Source: Janthinobacterium sp. | Lineage (GTDB): Bacteria; Pseudomonadota; Gammaproteobacteria; Burkholderiales; Burkholderiaceae_D | DNA: 64,000 nucleotides | Direction: 5' to 3' | NCBI RefSeq assembly: GCF_009923995.1 | Contig: NZ_RFSK01000004.1 | Location: forward strand, 1 to 64,000 | Shown here: one piece after another, positions 13,945-24,756 of the stretch | Numbering within the stretch: the first letter of the stretch is position 1 | Layout: the number at the start of each line of letters is the position of its first letter | Translations under genes and position numbers: made by a program | The notes under the pieces: model-generated | The model's database searches: none | Seen by the model: the letters and a program-made list of their open reading frames with translations, nothing else | What the model was told of the DNA's origin: nothing

Positions 13945-14637
13945 CTAGGCGGTGTCTTTCGGGTAACGCTTGAAGATGGAATCGAAATGCTCGGTGTAGG
14001 CCCGCATCAGGCCCGCTTCATCCTTGTTTTCCAGCATTTCCACGATGGCGATATGGTCGCGCGCCGTCGCTTCCATGGCCCAGGGGTCGAGCTGGGCGGC
14101 CGTGGACGCCTTGTGCATATTGTTGAAGACGTTCCAGAACAGGTCGATCAAGGCCAGCAGGAAGCGGTTGTTCAGGCACGAGTACATTTCGGCATGGAAA
14201 GCGCGGTCTTCGGCGGGGAAGGTTTCCTGCCGCAGCGCCTTTTCCAGCATCGTGTCGGCCAGGTCGCGCAGCACGGCGATGTGCTTCGGCGTGATGTTTT
14301 TCACCACGGAAGGAATCGCGCCGATTTCCAGGTAGGTGCGCACGTACAGCAGGTCCGTGATCTGGTCGTCGTTGGCGACCATGGAATACGGCAGGTTGTC
14401 GAGGATGGAATCGAAGGAAAAGGCTTTCACGAAGATGCCTTCGCCGTGGCGCGACTCGATCACGCCCAGCGATTCGAGGGCCTTGACGGCTTCGCGCAGG
14501 CTGGGGCGGCTCATGTTGAGCTCCTCGGCCATGCGCGCCTCGGGCGGCAGGGCATCGTTCGCCTTCAGGTTGTTCTGCTCGATGAATTCCTTGATTTTGA
14601 CTTGCGCGTGGCGGTAAGCCGGTATCTTTGTGACCAT
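13945..14637 (-). CDS. FadR-subfamily GntR transcriptional regulator (NanR-like)
   Basis: The 230-residue regulator has an N-terminal winged helix-turn-helix (LPPEARMAEELNMSRPSLRE and the GVIESRHGEGIFV wing) and a C-terminal FCD ligand domain with its metal/ligand histidines (FHAEM, H at the DHIAIVE helix). It sits inside the long sialic acid operon between a NanM paralogue and the binding-protein gene, so it probably controls both sialic acid operons and its own synthesis. The duplicated 22-bp element at 5621-5642 and 15844-15865 is the best candidate binding site. Repressor relieved by a sialic acid pathway intermediate is inference by analogy to E. coli NanR. Confidence 0.85.
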   Translation of the reverse strand: MVTKIPAYRHAQVKIKEFIEQNNLKANDALPPEARMAEELNMSRPSLREAVKALESLGVIESRHGEGIFVKAFSFDSILDNLPYSMVANDDQITDLLYVRTYLEIGAIPSVVKNITPKHIAVLRDLADTMLEKALRQETFPAEDRAFHAEMYSCLNNRFLLALIDLFWNVFNNMHKASTAAQLDPWAMEATARDHIAIVEMLENKDEAGLMRAYTEHFDSIFKRYPKDTA

Positions 14638-14651
14638 TGTTTTCTCACTAA

Positions 14652-15773
14652 TTAAGCAGGGTACGACACGGTATCATGGCCGGGGCCATTCGATAACGTT
14701 ATTGCCAAGGTTTCCAGGGTGGCAGCGCCCCCATCGGTATCGCCGCCCACCAGCAGCAGGCTGTTGCCCACCTGGAAGGACAGGCCATGCGCGCGGGGCG
14801 CCGGCAGCAAGCCCAGCAGGCGCCATTGCCCGCCGGCAAAGCCGTACAGCTCGCGGCGCCAGGACTTGGCCAGGCCCGCATGGGCGTGCAGTTGCTGCTG
14901 TGCATAGTTGGCGCTGGCGCCGATGAAGTGCGTGCCGCCGGCGAGGACGGGCATGCCGCCGCACAGGCCGCCAAACGCGGCCGCCACGCCTTCCTGCGGC
15001 ACGCCGGGTGCCGTGTCCGGCAAGGCGCGCCGCTCCCAGCCGCCGGCGTCTGGCCGCGCATGCCAGGCCAGCGGCGTGCGCAGGCCCGGCTTGATTTCGC
15101 CGCTGGACACGATGGGACCGTCTGCGGCAGCGATGGCGACGGCGCCGCAGGTGCCGGCAAACGGCAGCACGCCGTCATCCTGCAGGGTGGCAGTGCGCGG
15201 GGCGAAGCGCCATTGATGGCGGTTCCATTCGAAGGCGGCGACGGGGCGGGCCATGTAGGCGCGCAGGATGGCGGGCCGCTCAAGCTCGCCGGCGGCCGCA
15301 TGGGCCGTGCAAAAGTCGTCGAACTGGGCGCGGTGGTAGCCGCCGAAGAGCACGATGCTGCCATCCGCCTGGGCCAGGGCCGAGGCGCCCAGCAAGCCCA
15401 GCGGCAGTTGCAGGTCCAGTTGCTGCCAGGCATCAAGCGTGGTGTCGTAGCGCCAGACGGCGTCGGACTGGCGGGCGCTGTGGCCCGCAGGCGTGATGGC
15501 GCCGCCGAACACATAGAGGAACTGGCCGCTGGCGGCGCAGGCGGCGCCAGCCGGAGCCGTGCCTGGAAAGTCCGCCATGCGCTGCCAGCCGTGAGCGCGC
15601 CGGGCCGTGTCGAGACGGTACCAGGCGACACCCGCGCTGCCCAGGCCCGCATACAGCTGGCCGTCCAGCGCGGCGCCGGCCGCGTCGCGCAGGGCCACGG
15701 GGAAGGCGGGCCAGCTGGTGTCGAACTGCAGGTCGAACGGCGCGGTCATCGTTGTAGCGTCTGGCTGAAGCAT
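14652..15773 (-). CDS. NanM-like Kelch protein lacking a signal peptide
   Basis: The 373-residue protein is a paralogue of the periplasmic NanM at 3190-4338: both share LYAGLGSAG near the N-terminus, Kelch blades such as LYVFGGAI and IVLFGG, and the active-site motif GEIKPGLR. Unlike that copy, it begins MLQPDATTMTAPFDL with no hydrophobic signal, so it is likely cytoplasmic. It could act on sialic acid anomers after import, or on a related sugar acid. GAGAA lies nine bases before the ATG. It is the first gene of the ten-gene sialic acid operon, 14 bp ahead of the regulator gene. Confidence 0.8.
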   Translation of the reverse strand: MLQPDATTMTAPFDLQFDTSWPAFPVALRDAAGAALDGQLYAGLGSAGVAWYRLDTARRAHGWQRMADFPGTAPAGAACAASGQFLYVFGGAITPAGHSARQSDAVWRYDTTLDAWQQLDLQLPLGLLGASALAQADGSIVLFGGYHRAQFDDFCTAHAAAGELERPAILRAYMARPVAAFEWNRHQWRFAPRTATLQDDGVLPFAGTCGAVAIAAADGPIVSSGEIKPGLRTPLAWHARPDAGGWERRALPDTAPGVPQEGVAAAFGGLCGGMPVLAGGTHFIGASANYAQQQLHAHAGLAKSWRRELYGFAGGQWRLLGLLPAPRAHGLSFQVGNSLLLVGGDTDGGAATLETLAITLSNGPGHDTVSYPA

Positions 15774-17406: not shown

Positions 17407-19170
17407 CTACACGGTGGCCGCACTGTCATGCAACTGCTGGAACTGCGCCAGCTGCTGCTGCATCAGCCGCGCATACTGGCCGCCCGCGCGCAGCAGCTCG
17501 GCATGCGTGCCTTGCTGGCAGATGCGGCCATCTTCCATGACGATGATGCGGTCCGCCTTGACGATGGTGGAAAAGCGGTGGGCGATGATGATGGTGGTGC
17601 GGCCTTGCATCAGGGTATCGAGCGCTTGCTGCACCAGCTGTTCGCTGGCGGCGTCCAGGGCGCTGGTGGCTTCGTCGAGGATGAGGATCTTCGGCGCGCG
17701 CAGGATGGCGCGGGCGATGGCGATGCGCTGCTTCTGTCCGCCCGACAGTTGCACGCCCCGTTCGCCCACGAGGGTGTCGTAGCCGTCCGGGAAGGCCGTG
17801 ATGAAATCATGGGCGTGCGCCAGGCGCGCGGCCGCCTGCATTTCCCCGCGCCCCACCTCGCGCCCGGGCACGGCGAAGGCGATATTGTCCGCGATGCTGC
17901 CGGAAAACAGGGCCGGCTCCTGCTCCACCACGGCCATCTGGCGCCGCAGCTGCGCCACGCCGAAGAGGCGCGCGTCGATGCCGTCGAACTGCAGGCTGCC
18001 CGCGCCGGGCTGGTAATGCCCCAGCACGAGGCTGGCGATGGTGGACTTGCCCGCGCCCGAGGCGCCCACGAGGGCGATCTTTTCGCCCGCCCGGATGGTC
18101 AGGCTGACGCCGTCGAGGGCCGTCGCCTGCGTGCGCTCCGGATAGGAAAAGCGCACCTCGCGCAGCGCGACATGCCCGGCCAGCGGCGGCTGCGGCGCGG
18201 CGGCGGGCACGGGGCGGTGGCTGCGCAGGATCTCGAAGATGCGGTCGGTCGAGCCCATGGTGCGCATCCACGTGTTCCAGAACTCGCTGATGGAACCGGC
18301 CGTGTCCGTCACCATGCTGGCATAGATGACGAAGGCCGTCAGCTCGCCCACCGTCAGCCGGCCCTGGCCGATCAGGTGGGCGCCGAAGCACAGCGTCGTC
18401 AGCAGGGCCACGAAGGCGACCATGCCCTGCGCGCCCTGGAACACGGCCAGCAGGCGCGTGCCGGCCAGCGACACGCCCAGCAGCTGCCGCATGGCTTGCG
18501 CGTAGCGGTCCATGGCGCCGCCCTGCTGGTTGAACGCCTGCACCAGGCGGGCATGGGCAAAATACTCCTGCGCCACCTTGCCGCTGGCGGCCAGGCTGGC
18601 GGCAATGGCGCGCGAACGCTGGCGGTAATTGCTTCCTGTTATTTTTCCGAAATACAGGCTGATGGGGATGAACAGGGCCAGGGGCAGGCTCAGCATGGGC
18701 GACAGCTGCAGCAGCATGGCGATGCCGCCGACGAACACGCACAGCGAGCGCAGGGCATTGGCCGCGCCGATGGTCAGGCTTTCATGCAGGGCCGACACGT
18801 CCGACGTCAAGCGGCTGTTGAGTTCTCCCCCGTGGTGCTTGTCGAAGAAGGCGATGGGCTGGTTGATCACCACGTCGAACAGGCGGCGCCGCACATCCAT
18901 GACGATCATGTGGCCGCTCGACTGCAGCAGATAGAAGCGGGCGGTGGAGGCCAGCGCGTACAGCACGCTGAAGACGAACATGGCGGCCACCATGGCGGGC
19001 GTCACGCCGCGCGCCGTCAGTTCGGCCACGTGGTCGATGAAGTAGGCGATGGCTTGCGGAAAGCCCAGCTGCGCCGCCACCGTCAGGACCATGCACAGCA
19101 GGCCGGCGGCGATGCGCCAGCGCACGGGGTACAGCAGGCGCAGGCGCTCCAGGTGGGGATGGACATTCAT
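17407..19170 (-). CDS. ABC exporter (fused membrane and ATPase domains), last gene of the peptide-maturation operon
   Basis: The 587-residue half-transporter has six predicted membrane helices in residues 15-300 and a nucleotide-binding domain with Walker A GASGAGKST (about 368-376), signature [14 protein letters not shown] and Walker B ILILDEATSALD. It lacks an N-terminal C39 peptidase domain, so it resembles MsbA-type exporters and not leader-cleaving bacteriocin transporters. The ATG at 19170 overlaps the redoxin stop (ATGA), fixing the start and showing translational coupling. Context suggests it exports the mature product of the four small precursor genes. Confidence 0.85.
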   Translation of the reverse strand: MNVHPHLERLRLLYPVRWRIAAGLLCMVLTVAAQLGFPQAIAYFIDHVAELTARGVTPAMVAAMFVFSVLYALASTARFYLLQSSGHMIVMDVRRRLFDVVINQPIAFFDKHHGGELNSRLTSDVSALHESLTIGAANALRSLCVFVGGIAMLLQLSPMLSLPLALFIPISLYFGKITGSNYRQRSRAIAASLAASGKVAQEYFAHARLVQAFNQQGGAMDRYAQAMRQLLGVSLAGTRLLAVFQGAQGMVAFVALLTTLCFGAHLIGQGRLTVGELTAFVIYASMVTDTAGSISEFWNTWMRTMGSTDRIFEILRSHRPVPAAAPQPPLAGHVALREVRFSYPERTQATALDGVSLTIRAGEKIALVGASGAGKSTIASLVLGHYQPGAGSLQFDGIDARLFGVAQLRRQMAVVEQEPALFSGSIADNIAFAVPGREVGRGEMQAAARLAHAHDFITAFPDGYDTLVGERGVQLSGGQKQRIAIARAILRAPKILILDEATSALDAASEQLVQQALDTLMQGRTTIIIAHRFSTIVKADRIIVMEDGRICQQGTHAELLRAGGQYARLMQQQLAQFQQLHDSAATV

Positions 19171-19721
19171 GCGGCGCGCTCCTCGGCAATGTCGCAGTTC
19201 AGTTGGTCGACGAGGGCCAGCCAGTCGTCGTCGCCGACGAGGCCCGCGGCCTCGACGGTTCCAGCATGGCTGACGAAGACATAGGATGGCGAACTCATCA
19301 ATGGATTCAGGCGGCGGTAGTCGCGCAGGCGCAGGCGCGCCGCCGCCGCCCGCAAGGTGTTGCTCGGCAGAAAGGCGCGCAGGCGGCGGACCGGTTCCTC
19401 GCTGAGCAGCCAAACGGCCAGGCCTGCCGCGCGGGCCTGCGGCAGCAAGCCGTCGATGCCGGCCAGCTTGTCGCGGCATTTCGGGCAGCGGCTGGCGAGG
19501 AACAGCAGCACCGTGGCTTGCCCCGGGGCGCCGGGCTGGAAGCGGGCGCCGCCAGCCATCGGGCGGGCGTGGACGGCGGGCAGGGGCTCGCCCGCCACGA
19601 GGGCGGCCGCCGGCTGCCGTTCGCGGCGGCTGGCGCGCAGCACGGCTAGGCTCAGCCATATATTGCCCGCGATGGCGAACGCCAGCGCCGCCAGCACCAG
19701 TTGCAGGGTCGTGTCATCCAT
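19167..19721 (-). CDS. Membrane-anchored thioredoxin-like protein (MauD-like redoxin)
   Basis: The 184-residue protein has one N-terminal membrane helix (LVLAALAFAIAGNIWLSLAVL) and a thioredoxin-fold domain with redox motif C79-P-K-C82 after the FLAS strand and a plausible cis-Pro in SSPSYVFV. The layout matches MauD, which works with MauE in forming disulfides of methylamine dehydrogenase. Here the preceding gene encodes a MauE-like protein and the two genes touch (stop and start share bases), but no methylamine dehydrogenase gene is nearby. The likely client is the Cys-pair peptides encoded upstream. Confidence 0.78.
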   Translation of the reverse strand: MDDTTLQLVLAALAFAIAGNIWLSLAVLRASRRERQPAAALVAGEPLPAVHARPMAGGARFQPGAPGQATVLLFLASRCPKCRDKLAGIDGLLPQARAAGLAVWLLSEEPVRRLRAFLPSNTLRAAAARLRLRDYRRLNPLMSSPSYVFVSHAGTVEAAGLVGDDDWLALVDQLNCDIAEERAA

Positions 19722-20230
19722 CAGTCCGCCTTTGCCAGGGTGGCGATGTCATGCAGGGAAATGGCGGCCACGCAGACGATGGATGCCAGGCCGGCGGCCA
19801 GCACGGCGGACGCCGCGGGCAGGGTCGCCTCCCGGGCCAGGGCGAAGTAGGCGGCATTGATGCCGACGAACAGCCCGTTGCGCAGCAGGTCGTAGTGCGA
19901 GACGGGGCGCGCCGCTTCGCCGAAGCAGCTGCAGCGCACGACGCTGTGCGTGAAGTAGCGGTAGGCGAGGATGGCCGTGAGCGTGCCGAGCAGCAATAAG
20001 GCCAGCAACATGGGCAGGCGCGTGCCGCCGCCCAGTATCCACGCGGCCAGCAGCAGTTCCGCCGCCACGAGGCCGGGCGCGGCCCAGGCGGCGATGGCGG
20101 GCGCCAGGCCGAACGAGGCGGACAGGTTGTCGCGGAAGGCACCATAGCCGCGCAGCTTGCCCACGCTGGCCGCCAGCAGCAGCAGGGCGATGCAGCAGCG
20201 GGCCGTATCGGCCAGCAGCAGCGTCAGCAT
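19721..20230 (-). CDS. MauE/DoxX-like redox-associated membrane protein
   Basis: The 169-residue integral membrane protein has four predicted helices and the characteristic CSCFGEA motif (C100 and C102), as in the MauE family. MauE proteins are thought to act with MauD-type redoxins in periplasmic disulfide formation. The ATG at 20230 overlaps the upstream protease gene by seven bases; an in-frame extension to 20329 would overlap the protease coding region by over 100 bp and has no hydrophobic character. Placed within the peptide-maturation operon, it probably supplies oxidising equivalents for the two-cysteine peptides. Confidence 0.78.
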   Translation of the reverse strand: MLTLLLADTARCCIALLLLAASVGKLRGYGAFRDNLSASFGLAPAIAAWAAPGLVAAELLLAAWILGGGTRLPMLLALLLLGTLTAILAYRYFTHSVVRCSCFGEAARPVSHYDLLRNGLFVGINAAYFALAREATLPAASAVLAAGLASIVCVAAISLHDIATLAKAD

Positions 20231-21102
20231 GTTGGCTGCGCTTCCGCGCTCCACAGGGGCGCGAAGCCGCCCGGACGCTGGCGCCGCAGCTGCACCCCGT
20301 CGCGCGAGGCCAGCAGCGCATCCGTCCACGGCTCGTCGGGCGTGCTGCGCAGGGCGCCCCCTATGCTCGCTTGCAGCTGGACCGAGATGTCCCAGCCCAG
20401 GCGCTCGGCATGCGCATCGCGCGCCATGTTCAGGCCCAGGCGGGCCAGCTCTTCCCGTGTCAGCGCATAGTTATGGGAGTGATAGCCGCCAGCCAGCTGC
20501 GCGACGATGGCGCGGCGCGCTTCCGGCGTGGCATCGGGCAATTGCCATGCCAGCAACTCTTCGCCGATCTGCGCCACTTCCATGGTGGTGCGGTAAAACG
20601 CCGTCAGGGAAGGGGGGAAGATGTTGCCGCACAGCAGGGACAGGGCTTGCTGGCGGGCCGCGTGCTCGTCGACGCCGAACCATTGCCGGGCCATGTCGCC
20701 AAACAGCTTGATGTCCAGGCTGGACAGGGAACCGCCTTCGGCGCCGTCGAGCTGCGGGTCGATGGGCGAGAACAGGGCCAGGTCGCCCGCGATGATCTCG
20801 TCGGCGCCCAGGGCCAGCAGGGTGGCGGCCGACTGGCAGTGGAAGGGCACGATAAAGCTCAGGTGGCGCGCATGCTGGCGCAGCACGAGGGCGATGCGGC
20901 GCGCCGCGTTGACGATGCCGCCGCGGCCGTGCAGCACCACGTCGAGGCGCGCCACGGGGCCCGTCTGGCGGCACAGTTCGTAGACGGCGGGCAGCAGTTC
21001 CATGTCCAGGTGCGACGCGGCCAGCACGATGGTGCGGCTGTCGCGCACCTGTTCCAGTTCGCGCAGCTGGCGGGGAAGCAGGTTCAGGTCTGGCTGTGGC
21101 AT
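20224..21102 (-). CDS. SDH-type (ClpP-fold) serine protease
   Basis: The 292-residue protein matches the serine dehydrogenase proteinase (SDH) family, relatives of SppA and ClpP. Visible landmarks are LDVVLHGRGGIVNAA (residues 53-67, oxyanion region), the nucleophile Ser91 in HCQSAATLLALGADEI, and FSPIDPQL at 111-118. There is no signal peptide, so it is cytoplasmic. AAGGAG precedes the ATG by five bases and the gene overlaps the ATP-grasp gene by 19 bp. In this operon it is the only protease and is the best candidate for removing the leader of the small peptides; that role is inference. Confidence 0.78.
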   Translation of the reverse strand: MPQPDLNLLPRQLRELEQVRDSRTIVLAASHLDMELLPAVYELCRQTGPVARLDVVLHGRGGIVNAARRIALVLRQHARHLSFIVPFHCQSAATLLALGADEIIAGDLALFSPIDPQLDGAEGGSLSSLDIKLFGDMARQWFGVDEHAARQQALSLLCGNIFPPSLTAFYRTTMEVAQIGEELLAWQLPDATPEARRAIVAQLAGGYHSHNYALTREELARLGLNMARDAHAERLGWDISVQLQASIGGALRSTPDEPWTDALLASRDGVQLRRQRPGGFAPLWSAEAQPTC

Positions 21103-22097
21103 ACAGCTCCTTCGATCAGCGCGTCCGCCATGGTTTCCAGCAATGGCAGGGTAGGCACCAGTTGCTGTACGTACAAAAATTGGCCGACAGGATTGTTTTC
21201 CAGGAAAACGTACTCGCCCTCGGGCGTGACGATCAGGTCCAGCGCGCCGTATTCCAGGCCATAGCTGTGCACGAAGGCGAGGCAGCGCTGGCGCACCTCG
21301 TCCGGCAAGGTCGCCGCCTCGTAGCGGATGGGGGCCGACATGTCGCGCGAATCGATGGCCGTGCGGGCATCGTCCTGGGAATACAGGCGGGCGGCAAACA
21401 GTTGCTTGCCGATCACGGTGACCCGCAGTTCATATTGTTTGGCGATATATTCCTGGAACTGGCAGCTCAGTTCGCTGACGGCATCCAGGCTGTCCAGCAT
21501 GGCGTCGTCGAGCACGGTGGTGCCGATGCCGTGGCTGACGCGGTCGGCGCCGTCCACCGCGTCGGCGGCCAGGGTGGGCGTGGACATCGCCTTGAAAATG
21601 ATGGGGCCGCCAACGGCGGCGCGCAGGGCGCGCACGTCGTCGGGCACGTTGGTGATCACGGTGGCGGGCACGCGAAAGCCCATGCGTGCCGCCCGCGCCA
21701 GCTGTTCGCCCTTCCATTTGGCGCCGCGCAGCGCCAGCGGATGACTGATCCAGTAGCAATCGAGCGCGTGCAGCACGCTGAAAATGGCTTGTTCCGTTTC
21801 CAGCTTGGCATAGGCGCGCTCCTGCGGCGCCAGGTCGGCGCTGGCATAGGCGTACTCGGCAGGCTTGCGCAGCCACACGGCGCCCACGTGCCGCAGATCC
21901 AGCCACTCGCCATCGGGCAGCAGGCGCAGGCGCGCGCCGGCATGGCCATCGTGCAGGCGCTGGCACAGCTGGTAGTCGCGGGGAAAGGCGTCGAGATTGA
22001 TGCGGAAGGGGGCGTGGCCGCGTTCGGCCAGGATGGCGGCGACCAGGTCGGCATGCAGATCGCCGCCATGGCTGATGATCAAAACCTTTTTATGCAT
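21084..22097 (-). CDS. MvdD-like ATP-grasp ribosomal peptide maturase
   Basis: The 337-residue protein looks like ATP-grasp ligases that form ester or amide crosslinks in graspetides (MvdC/MvdD type). It starts KKVLIISHGGDLHADLV, has a central ATP-binding lysine region (PIIFKAMSTPT), and the C-terminal metal/ATP motif LENNPVGQFLYVQQ around residue 298, which corresponds to the ENPSGQW-type motif of these enzymes. It is the first enzyme gene after four small precursor-like genes and is separated from them by a terminator hairpin. RimK-type or glutathione synthetase-like ligases share the fold, but the NPxGQ motif and the precursor genes favour peptide modification. Confidence 0.82.
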   Translation of the reverse strand: MHKKVLIISHGGDLHADLVAAILAERGHAPFRINLDAFPRDYQLCQRLHDGHAGARLRLLPDGEWLDLRHVGAVWLRKPAEYAYASADLAPQERAYAKLETEQAIFSVLHALDCYWISHPLALRGAKWKGEQLARAARMGFRVPATVITNVPDDVRALRAAVGGPIIFKAMSTPTLAADAVDGADRVSHGIGTTVLDDAMLDSLDAVSELSCQFQEYIAKQYELRVTVIGKQLFAARLYSQDDARTAIDSRDMSAPIRYEAATLPDEVRQRCLAFVHSYGLEYGALDLIVTPEGEYVFLENNPVGQFLYVQQLVPTLPLLETMADALIEGAVCHSQT

Positions 22098-22123
22098 GCA
22101 GGTCCCAGTGACAAAAGACAGTG

Positions 22124-22149
22124 AAAAAGCCTTGCCGTGGCAAGGCTTT
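22124..22149 (-). terminator. Strong terminator between precursor A and the ATP-grasp gene
   Basis: The minus strand carries an 11-bp perfect stem (arms AAAGCCTTGCC and GGCAAGGCTTT, two-base loop) followed by a T tract. It would end most transcripts after the precursor and let a fraction read into the maturation genes, a common arrangement in RiPP loci. Confidence 0.85.
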
Positions 22150-22163
22150 CCGCGGGCGGTGTA

Positions 22164-22355
22164 TCAGCAAAACTCTCCGCCGTCACTCGAGCCAACGCGC
22201 GAATAGCGGTATTGCTCCTCGCTGTCGACGGCCGTGCAGCCGGCCACGGCGACGCCGTCGCGTACCTTCCAGGGGGCAGGAAGGGCCGGTTTTTTCTCGT
22301 CCTTTTTCTCCGCCAGTTTAAATGCGAACAATTTTGTCTGATTCTGCTTTTGCAT
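22164..22355 (-). CDS. Precursor-like peptide A (63 aa, graspetide-like family)
   Basis: This is one of four paralogues. Residues 1-17 form the conserved leader (TKLFAFKLAEK at 7-17), followed by a charged/Pro linker (KKDEKKPALPA), the conserved block PWKVRDGVAVAGC (28-40) and a variable segment ending SDGGEFC, with Cys63 as the last residue. LFAFKLAE resembles the PFFARYLE leader motif of microviridins, which binds the ATP-grasp ligase. GAGGA lies 11 bases before the ATG at 22355, and the paralogue alignment supports that start over the upstream in-frame one. The gene is bracketed by terminators on both sides. Confidence 0.8.
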   Translation of the reverse strand: MQKQNQTKLFAFKLAEKKDEKKPALPAPWKVRDGVAVAGCTAVDSEEQYRYSRVGSSDGGEFC

Positions 22356-22462
22356 GTTTTGGGTTCCTCTGATGGTCAATATCCCGCATATTCATTTCCC
22401 GCGGATGGAAAAGCCCTGCCGCGATTGGCGCCGGTATGCGCATGAATAGGTGGAAGTGTCTG

Positions 22463-22481
22463 AAAACCGCGCGCGGCGCGG
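22463..22481 (-). terminator. Terminator after precursor B
   Basis: On the minus strand CCGCGC and GCGCGG pair around a three-base loop and are followed by four T residues. It lies about 20 bp after the stop of precursor B. Confidence 0.55.
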
Positions 22482-22501
22482 GATTGATGGTGCGGCGGAG
22501 A

Positions 22502-22690
22502 TCAGCAATAGATGCCGGTATCGTTCGGATTCAGGCGCGAGTTGTCGCGCAGATTGTAATCGTCAGGATTGCCGTAATACGTGCAGCCTGCCGTGGCGAC
22601 GCCGTCGCGCACCTGCCATGGCTGCTGGACTTCTTTTTTCTCTTCTTTTTCAGCCAGTTTGAAAGCGAATAATTTGGTTTGATTTTGCAT
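22502..22690 (-). CDS. Precursor-like peptide B (62 aa, graspetide-like family)
   Basis: The peptide begins MQNQTKLFAFKLAEK, followed by EEKKEVQQ, the conserved PWQVRDGVATAGC (24-36) and a Tyr/Asn/Asp-rich segment ending NDTGIYC, Cys62 being the last residue. Its two cysteines (36 and 62) match those of the other three paralogues. AGAGGATA lies ahead of the ATG at 22690. The 31 bp directly upstream of the start are nearly identical to those of precursor D. An AT-rich interval (22722-22860) between this gene and the terminator of precursor C probably contains its own promoter. Confidence 0.8.
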   Translation of the reverse strand: MQNQTKLFAFKLAEKEEKKEVQQPWQVRDGVATAGCTYYGNPDDYNLRDNSRLNPNDTGIYC

Positions 22691-22721
22691 TGTACTATCC
22701 TCTTGTAATGGTTAAGTACTG
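22691..22721 (-). repeat. 31-bp upstream leader shared by precursors B and D (copy 1)
   Basis: This block, which contains the Shine-Dalgarno sequence and ends at the start codon, matches 23525-23555 with two mismatches. It begins AGTACTTAACCA and ends GGATAGTACA on the minus strand, so the GTACT/AGTAC ends could pair and enclose the ribosome-binding site. Confidence 0.75.
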
Positions 22722-22881
22722 ATTTGCCCGTTTGCCGTGATTCGGCATTTAAATATTAAGTTCAAAAAAATATTCAGTCAATCAATGAATGATATATATT
22801 TAAAATGACCTGGTATTAATATGTCGGGCAGGAATAATCCGCACGGCTGCCGGTGCACGGTATTCATATTGCAGTATAAAT

Positions 22882-22901
22882 AAAACCCCGCTAGGGCGAG
22901 G
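22882..22901 (-). terminator. Terminator after precursor C
   Basis: CCTCGC and GCGGGG pair (one G-T wobble) around CCTA and are followed by TTTTATTTAT on the minus strand, about 20 bp after the precursor C stop codon. Confidence 0.7.
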
Positions 22902-22919
22902 TGTATGGCTATGCCGCGT

Positions 22920-23117
22920 TCAGCAGAATTGCCCGGTGTCGCGGGAATTGACCGTGGAGGTATAGCGATACTGGAAACGCTCGACCTCGCTGCAACCGGC
23001 CACGGCGACGCCGTCGCGTACTTTCCATGCGACAGACGCTTGAGACGGGGTTGTTGCCTGGGGCGATTCCTGTTTCTCTGCAAGCTTGAAAGCGAATGAT
23101 TTTGCCTGGTTCTGCAT
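22920..23117 (-). CDS. Precursor-like peptide C (65 aa, graspetide-like family)
   Basis: The peptide has the leader SFAFKLAEK (residues 7-15), a Gln/Ser/Thr/Pro linker, the conserved WKVRDGVAVAGC (31-42) and a variable end RDTGQFC with Cys65 terminal. Cysteines are at 42 and 65, 22 residues apart as in precursor A. ACGAGGATCACACC precedes the ATG at 23117. The leader is slightly diverged (AKS in place of TKL/SKL), while the block before the first Cys is unchanged, suggesting selection on both parts. Confidence 0.8.
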   Translation of the reverse strand: MQNQAKSFAFKLAEKQESPQATTPSQASVAWKVRDGVAVAGCSEVERFQYRYTSTVNSRDTGQFC

Positions 23118-23314
23118 GGTGTGATCCTCGTGTGGTGGGGCCGTGCCGCAAGTGTCAGGTCCGGGACAGGGAAATTGCGTACGGCCCGGATGGAATGCCG
23201 CTGCATTTTGCGCAGGCGGAAATGGCCTGCACGCCAGGCAGATGGATTCAAAAGGGAATCAAAACGGAATGGAATGAACGCCGCCGGCGGCGCGTTGATG
23301 CCGCGCTGCCGTGA

Positions 23315-23524
23315 TCAGCAATACTGGCCGCTGTCATTCGGCTGGAGGCGCGATTCGTAGCGATAATTTCCGCTGCCGGCGATGAATTCGCTGCAGCCGG
23401 CAACGGCTATGCCGCTGCGTACCTTCCAGGGCCGGGGCGGGACCGCCGGGCTTGCTGTCTGGGTGTTTACCTGTTTTTCAGCCAGTTTGAACGCGAACAA
23501 TTTGCTTTGCTTGAGTCTTTGCAT
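23315..23524 (-). CDS. Precursor-like peptide D (69 aa, graspetide-like family)
   Basis: The longest of the four, with leader SKLFAFKLAEK (7-17), a Thr/Ala/Pro-rich linker, RPWKVRSGIAVAGC (31-44) and a segment ending NDSGQYC with Cys69 terminal. It is the first of the set in transcription order. AGAGGATA precedes the ATG at 23524 and the 31-bp upstream block is shared with precursor B. After its stop there is only a GC-rich palindrome (near 23278-23292) without a T tract. Confidence 0.8.
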   Translation of the reverse strand: MQRLKQSKLFAFKLAEKQVNTQTASPAVPPRPWKVRSGIAVAGCSEFIAGSGNYRYESRLQPNDSGQYC

Positions 23525-24246: not shown

Positions 24247-24756
24247 ATGAACGAGCCGATGAACGAACAGGACAAGGAAGTACTCAACGCACAGCGCAAG
24301 GAACAGGACAAGGAAATGATCGACGCACAGAGCAAGGAACAGGACAAGGAAGTGATCGACGCACAGAGCAAGGACCAGAGCAAGGAATTGATCAACGAAC
24401 AGAGCAAGGACCAGAGCAAGGACCAGAGCAGTGCGCAGATCCACGAAAACCAGCGCCGCATCTGCGACAAATACGGCTTGCCCGCGCAGGCGCCCGAGGA
24501 CATGGTGGCCCTGGCCATCGGCAGCCTGGACCAGTCACCCATCTATGGCACGCGCATCGACCTGCCCGAGAACGGCACCATCAGCTGGTTCATCCATTGC
24601 GGCGCGCACAGCGACGCGTCCGATTTTTACCAGCCCCTGCATGCGGCCCACCTGACCGAACTGCTGCCGCAGGTGCTCGCCTACCTGGCCTTGCCCAGCG
24701 GGACCAAATTCATCCTCGACCGCGCCGGCTACGAAGATGTGTGGCGCGAAGGCTAG
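24247..24756 (+). CDS. Imm33-like domain protein with N-terminal 12-residue repeats
   Basis: The 169-residue product has two parts. Residues 7-62 are four copies of a charged 12-residue unit (EQDKEVIDAQSK type) plus two half-units, predicted to form a long helix or coiled coil. Residues 63-169 resemble the Imm33-like immunity domain: a region near ISWFIHCGAHSDASDFYQPL, then AYLALPSGTKFILDRAGYED near the end. Imm33-like proteins are often found near polymorphic toxins, but no toxin gene is adjacent. The ATG at 24247 is the first after the upstream stop; another ATG at 24259 is possible. Confidence 0.65.
   Translation: MNEPMNEQDKEVLNAQRKEQDKEMIDAQSKEQDKEVIDAQSKDQSKELINEQSKDQSKDQSSAQIHENQRRICDKYGLPAQAPEDMVALAIGSLDQSPIYGTRIDLPENGTISWFIHCGAHSDASDFYQPLHAAHLTELLPQVLAYLALPSGTKFILDRAGYEDVWREG
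24265..24432 (+). repeat. 36-bp in-frame tandem repeat in the Imm33-like gene
   Basis: Four 36-bp units start at 24265, 24301, 24337 and 24373 and are followed by two 12-bp partial units. Each encodes (E/D)Q(D/S)KE..(D/N).Q(S/R)K. The repeat keeps the reading frame, so copy number could change without frameshift. Confidence 0.85.

Follow-up and report, generated by a model that had tools for sequence, protein, structure and literature searches.

We describe a nine-gene locus on the minus strand (17407–23524) of a 64,000-nucleotide stretch of Janthinobacterium sp. DNA (contig NZ_RFSK01000004.1, positions 1 to 64,000; here called the window), which encodes four related short peptides, an ATP-grasp ligase, an SDH-type serine protease, a MauE membrane protein, a redoxin and an ATP-binding cassette (ABC) exporter. 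The locus is real, and it is a graspetide-type cassette shared by many relatives. We observe which genes it holds, that they are inherited together, and which motifs and core residues are conserved; from these we infer all chemical steps, their order and the target. In our reading, to which we give a probability of about 0.62, the cassette is self-contained: its peptides would carry an ester nested in a disulfide, with leader removal by SDH, oxidation by MauE and the redoxin, and export by the ABC protein.

A graspetide-type cassette shared by many relatives

All nine frames are intact from ATG to stop (Table 1). An earlier first-pass annotation of the sequence had described four paralogous same-strand peptides preceding ligase, SDH, MauE, redoxin and ABC genes, and this arrangement is borne out by the intact frames and by profile matches to the enzyme and transport genes. 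The strict gene overlaps that it reported are likewise present, measuring 19, 7, 1 and 4 nucleotides in order from the ligase to the ABC gene. The end of the last peptide gene lies 66 nucleotides from the ligase gene, and AGAGGA or CGAGGA is found directly upstream of each of the four peptide genes. The MauE start was set by comparison with relatives (a longer listed frame begins at 20329); for the ABC gene, a longer listed frame begins at 19659.

Table 1 Genes of the cassette in the window
Feature	Coordinates	Strand	Basis
Precursor peptide 1, 69 residues	23315..23524	-	Intact frame; among 81 aligned precursors, conserved core positions all kept
Precursor peptide 2, 65 residues	22920..23117	-	Intact frame; core positions kept, as for peptide 1
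Precursor peptide 3, 62 residues	22502..22690	-	Intact frame; core positions kept, as for peptide 1
Precursor peptide 4, 63 residues	22164..22355	-	Intact frame; core positions kept, as for peptide 1
Graspetide-type ATP-grasp ligase, 337 residues	21084..22097	-	NCBIfam scores, PF21068, solved relatives, conserved residues, tree
SDH-type ClpP-fold serine protease, 292 residues, proposed leader peptidase	20224..21102	-	PF01972
MauE membrane protein with C-x-C-F-G motif, 169 residues	19721..20230	-	PF07291; conserved Cys; predicted structure with a predicted local distance difference test (pLDDT) score of 92.5
Membrane-anchored CxxC redoxin, 184 residues	19167..19721	-	CxxC in 31/31 aligned rows
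MsbA-like ABC exporter, 587 residues	17407..19170	-	ABC membrane and ATPase domains (Pfam)

Profile searches with the ligase gave 224.1 bits for TIGR04187 (SAV_5884; 2.4e-66), 189.5 for MvdD (7.9e-56), 173.1 for MvdC and 34.2 for RimK (1.6e-8), all below the respective curated NCBIfam cut-offs of 350, 475, 425 and 143.4 bits. The MvdD pre-ATP-grasp domain PF21068 is present at 58.8 bits (Pfam cut-off 27), and the six solved relatives include AMdnB, CdnC, and 5ig8 and 5ig9, whose chains are labelled ATP grasp ligase. Residues D287, E300 and N302, which we take from the ATP-grasp fold to be the likely metal ligands, are kept in 37 of 37 aligned rows. Because of these scores, structures and residues, the ligase belongs by class to the graspetide synthetases, outside the named models MvdD, MvdC and SAV_5884. 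The far stronger matches to TIGR04187, MvdD and MvdC lead us to reject a RimK-type ligase and agree with the MvdD-like label of the first-pass annotation.

The window's own genome has a single match to the ligase, and the nearest ligases come from Janthinobacterium (84–88% identical). When genome contigs were scanned with the window ligase, 46 loci were obtained: 36 with best-segment identities of 42–88% (L002–L034, L042, L045, L046) and 10 at 30–33%, nine of them cyanobacterial and one from Elusimicrobia. In a ligase tree from which the fragment L045 was omitted, 35 of the 36 close rows, the window included, fell into one group (support 97/90) spanning Pseudomonadota, Myxococcota and Bacteroidota; a Chloroflexota row (L032) lay outside it on a long branch.

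A survey of the genes around the 36 related ligases found SDH in 35, MauE in 31, the redoxin in 31, an ABC protein scoring above 100 bits in 32 and precursors in 33. Contigs of the three loci without precursors (L021, L032, L045) begin inside the ligase gene, and the small peptides that the first-pass annotation had tied to the ligase are kept in all 33 loci that reach upstream of it. The locus lacking SDH, L032, is a 3.7-kb contig, and another contig of that genome carries SDH, MauE and redoxin together. MauE and the redoxin are both missing from L012, L013, L024, L032 and L045; the genomes of the first two hold a second full cluster with both genes (L101, L102), and that of L045 has MauE, the redoxin and a partial SDH gene on another contig. 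SDH, MauE and redoxin are all absent from the 10 distant ligase loci, five of which (L039–L041, L043, L044) carry microviridin precursors.

Within the genus, one set of 12 out of 40 genomes has strong matches to both the ligase (E <1e-160) and SDH (E <1e-120). The other 28 have no strong match to either; two of them carry only distant ligases (G419, G424) and one a distant SDH-like match (G407, E 4.5e-11). A scan for precursors in 61 genomes, 37 of them from the genus, found them in 9; all nine are among the 12 cassette genomes, the remaining three of which were outside that scan. Across 392 family genomes, the ligase is matched at E <1e-150 in 38 places, spread over 36 genomes. In 30 of these loci, taken as 4-kb stretches, the window included, SDH and at least one precursor are present in 30 and MauE in 28, although many of these loci belong to the same species as the 46-locus scan and are not independent. 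A phylum sample of 398 genomes yielded, besides the genome of the window, a single ligase match (1e-66), which adjoins a second ligase and has neither SDH nor a precursor within the 4 kb examined. Separately, several Oxalobacteraceae-type relatives (G419, G424, G588, G598, G775, G778, G785 and others) have second, distant graspetide-type ligases (E ~1e-37 to 1e-56).

In 11 of the 12 cassette genomes, the cassette is flanked by a GFA-domain gene and a gene for a 126-residue protein, which stand 5.6–6.5 kb apart; no GFA match was found in the twelfth. These two flanking genes stand only 94–124 bp apart in 10 of the 28 cassette-free genus genomes, an empty site; in the other 18, one or both are unmatched or held apart. 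At the three empty sites compared (L107–L109), homology to the window runs 34–62 bp into the 3' end of the ABC gene (17407–17468), which suggests that the whole cassette was lost by deletion, possibly leaving a scar. With such a remnant at the ABC end, the cassette unit is likely to run from the peptides through the ABC gene.

For ligase, SDH, MauE and redoxin, pairwise distances compared over 21–28 loci after thinning of near-copies correlate at r 0.91–0.95, and for each of the six pairs none of 2000 permutations gave so high a value. Neighbouring genes that share their descent would already show such a correlation. Taken together, co-occurrence, matched divergence and the empty site strengthen the cassette reading.

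Beside the cassette, 24247–24753 on the plus strand encodes a protein with an Imm33-like domain (PF24719, 112 bits), whose N-terminal tail is a repetitive DKE/DQSK stretch, adjoining the 126-residue gene, which has no Pfam match. Both genes flank the cassette in six Janthinobacterium loci. Both are unmatched in the loci of other genera, so we do not favour the Imm33-like gene as a cassette member; the 126-residue gene is kept in 15 of the 28 cassette-free genus genomes, two by distant matches (Imm33 was not searched there). Further away, on the minus strand at 13948–15773, a GntR/FCD regulator neighbours a protein of the N-acetylneuraminate epimerase type (NANM, 287 bits); the two may mark a sialic acid locus.

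An invariant core pattern in the precursors

The four window peptides have no NCBIfam match and, in Pfam, one sub-threshold match (E 0.08). A similarity search nevertheless found 77 peptides across 33 loci, giving 81 aligned precursors with the four from the window. Of the 8306 open frames of 40 codons or more in the 46 loci, 77 match a regular expression written for the full precursor pattern, and a similar expression fits nothing in the 10 distant loci; together with the similarity hits, this shows that the precursors are not chance frames. F-[A/T]-F occurs near the N terminus in all 81, a W is shared by 77 and an R by 80, which agrees with the conserved leaders reported in the first-pass annotation. 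All 81 also contain (A/S)-G-C-(S/T) ... D-x-G-x-x-C. The microviridin PFFARFL leader and TxKxPSDxxE-like core are absent from the 81 by eye.

Adding family-wide loci and two second clusters to the aligned set gave 83 distinct cores, all of the form C-(S/T)-loop-D-x-G-x-x-C with a variable loop of 9–26 residues and with the first Cys, Ser/Thr, Asp, Gly and last Cys invariant. The first-pass annotation had rightly singled out the Cys pair but overlooked the Ser/Thr after the first Cys and the Asp of D-x-G-x-x-C. Tallied 8 positions from the start and 12 from the end, the next-best core positions are acidic in 29 of 83 and Ser/Thr/Lys in 34 of 83. Twelve cores lack any other Ser, Thr or Lys, and one lacks any other Asp or Glu. 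Ser/Thr(+2) and Asp(-6) are the sole pair that is always available and, if the ligase makes an ester like others of its class, its predicted partners. The two Cys lie directly outside this pair, so a disulfide between them would clamp the same stem; the Ser/Thr and Asp thus point to one predicted ester nested in a disulfide.

The last Cys is the C-terminal residue in 77 of the 83 cores and is followed by a single Ala in the other 6. Among 115 pairs of paralogs, with gaps counted as differences, identity is 0.27 in the loop versus 0.63–0.76 in the leader and frame. In L105 (also L007 and L008), nine tandem precursor paralogs with very different loops lie upstream of one ligase.

Proposed maturation and competing explanations

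In the mechanism that we propose, the N-terminal FAFKLA segment of the precursor would bind the ligase, which would activate the Asp of D-x-G-x-x-C and join it to the Ser/Thr next to the first Cys, closing one ester macrocycle. MauE and the redoxin would oxidize the two invariant Cys, placing a disulfide immediately beyond the ester; the result would be a doubly clamped stem-loop of 17–34 residues with a hypervariable loop of 9–26. SDH would cut off the leader, probably close to the (A/S)-G that is conserved ahead of the first Cys, and the ABC protein, whose membrane and ATPase domains both pass Pfam cut-offs, would export the product. A locus holding several precursor paralogs could make a small set of loops.

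The SDH protein passes the PF01972 cut-off and has a ClpP fold with an invariant Ser, and it scores below the equivalog cut-off of NF047768 (Clp_like_SDH; 80.6 versus 250 bits). The strongest competing explanation, which we nonetheless consider unlikely, is that SDH confers self-resistance as a copy of the protein that the product targets, some graspetides being inhibitors of serine proteases, and that another protease of the cell removes the leader. Carter et al. 2026 (PMC13097080) suggest that group-specific proteins, including the serine proteinase of group 9 graspetides, may be duplicated housekeeping genes for self-resistance. A duplicated housekeeping gene is not favoured here, however, because the 28 cassette-free genus genomes have no close SDH. 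SDH is, moreover, present in nearly all related loci, its gene overlaps that of the ligase in the window and its divergence tracks that of the ligase (r 0.94). Pfam shows no C39 peptidase domain in the ABC protein, which further counts against leader removal by another protease and sets aside a C39 double-glycine export protease.

MauE matches PF07291 at 70.3 bits (cut-off 27), and both Cys of its C-x-C-F-G motif are kept in 29 of 29 aligned rows. The redoxin has a Pfam AhpC-TSA match of 21.6 bits, under the cut-off of 26, and falls below the cut-off of the MauD model TIGR02661 (12 versus 188.6 bits). In a slightly less probable alternative than self-resistance, the two Cys would bind metal or form a thioester or thioether, and MauE and the redoxin would serve another step. 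Graspetide synthetases can indeed make non-native thioesters (PMC13097080), and 4 of the 83 cores have a third Cys. The other 79 have exactly two, at fixed places, and no radical SAM domain was found by Pfam in the nine genes. The pairing of MauE with the redoxin in 31 of 36 loci, where they share a single open frame in two (L010, L023) and keep both motifs invariant in the aligned rows, also counts against this alternative.

Positive charge in the redoxin is higher after the membrane anchor than before it in 30 of 31 rows, L026 being a tie, and in MauE it is loop 1 and the CxC loop that hold the most Lys/Arg, the latter being nearly as rich in Asp/Glu. By the positive-inside rule, the redoxin domain and the MauE Cys motif would face the cytoplasm. 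This topology does not discriminate as evidence of cytoplasmic oxidation, because the same N-out charge pattern is found in 12 of 12 MauD controls (L083–L094; the count leaves out six further rows with CSCC/CTCC motifs, probably MauA). Five or six MauD-type loci encode such a CSCC/CTCC protein that starts with a twin-arginine-like stretch. A start of this kind in a probable MauA would fit disulfide formation before export by the twin-arginine translocation (Tat) system.

RimK-type ATP-grasp ligases join amino acids, which could be taken to mean that the ligase modifies the C terminus or attaches an amino acid and makes no side-chain ester, given that most precursors end in Cys. The peptide-related ATP-grasp ligase PGM1 also joins amino acids (PMC8939145), but this explanation is highly improbable in view of the Ala past the Cys in 6 cores, the weak similarity of the ligase to RimK and an invariant Ser/Thr and Asp that it would leave without obvious reason.

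Several observations weigh against the reading of a self-contained cassette with an ester inside a disulfide. No MauE or redoxin is present in L024, and no MauE was found in that genome bin (the redoxin was not sought there). L021, L023, L032 and L045 gave no ABC match above 100 bits in the available stretch, and in L024, L025 and L027–L030 the ABC gene lies on the opposite strand and is less similar. The third Cys in a few cores, noted above, counts on the same side. Precursors and relatives were sought by similarity to the window peptides and ligase, which favours the pattern and may miss precursors without it, and the window leader only resembles the microviridin PFFARFL, a matter of likeness alone. 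The cytoplasmic side, on which the charge pattern would place both active sites, is an unusual place for disulfide formation, though the MauD controls share that pattern for the redoxin. A fuller version, in which an ester and a dedicated disulfide form a two-bond clamp, a ClpP-fold enzyme is the leader peptidase, MauE and the redoxin face the cytoplasm, the disulfide precedes export and the whole is a portable, all-or-nothing loop-display cassette, is offered more tentatively, with the balance somewhat against it.

Relation to known systems and significance

The closest published remark concerns group 9, a previously identified graspetide group in which over half of the members have a serine proteinase according to Carter et al. 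2026 (PMC13097080), in wording close to Pfam's for PF01972. Like the window family, these are predicted graspetides often found with a serine proteinase; a term search of the main text of that paper found no 'disulfide', 'Cys' or 'Mau'. The window family may be group 9 graspetides, perhaps already binned. Makarova et al. 2022 (PMC8939145) list 174 graspetide families with common neighbours, with SDH, MauE and redoxins absent from Table 1, and call the leader-cleaving enzyme of graspetides unknown.

Microviridins (MvdC/MvdD, MdnB/MdnC) resemble the window family in that the ligase is related and each locus holds several short precursors; the five microviridin control loci differ in having two ligases, the PFFARFL leader and the TxKxPSDxxE-like core, and in lacking SDH, MauE and redoxin. 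Graspimiditides (fuscimiditide, ThfA/ThfB) resemble it in nested crosslinks, a stem-loop and a tolerant loop (PMC12291112), and the fuscimiditide ligase modifies precursors whose loop is replaced by 0–72 residues. They have two or four nested graspetide crosslinks and a methyltransferase-made aspartimide, whereas here one ester and one disulfide are predicted and Pfam found no methyltransferase domain in the nine window genes. By analogy, fuscimiditide offers a model for nested crosslinks under a loop.

The MauE/MauD pair of methylamine dehydrogenase likewise sets MauE beside a CxxC redoxin that is anchored in the membrane and shows the same charge pattern; the window redoxin differs in its low score on the MauD model, and its proposed substrate is a short peptide. 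Among decRiPPter candidates from Streptomyces, MauE (in one family also MauD) has been proposed to act on Cys-rich precursors, but those have at least 8 Cys, and the ATP-grasp candidates there have no direct similarity to known graspetide ligases (PMC7794033).

The first-pass annotation had regarded the gene set as undescribed. In the open-licence literature searched, we did not find the ATP-grasp, SDH, MauE and redoxin cassette, the nested pair or the empty site, and to that extent the claim holds; whether it is new is uncertain, since a serine proteinase often accompanies the published graspetides of group 9. Parts of the system are thus already in print, and the full cassette with the nested pair was not found described in these terms.

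If our reading is true, the family would provide a peptide scaffold that combines ester and disulfide and varies naturally in its loop, a candidate ClpP-fold leader peptidase for graspetides, and a simple system in which to study the role and membrane side of MauE and the redoxin. The invariant residues make each of the proposed maturation steps testable by single substitutions.

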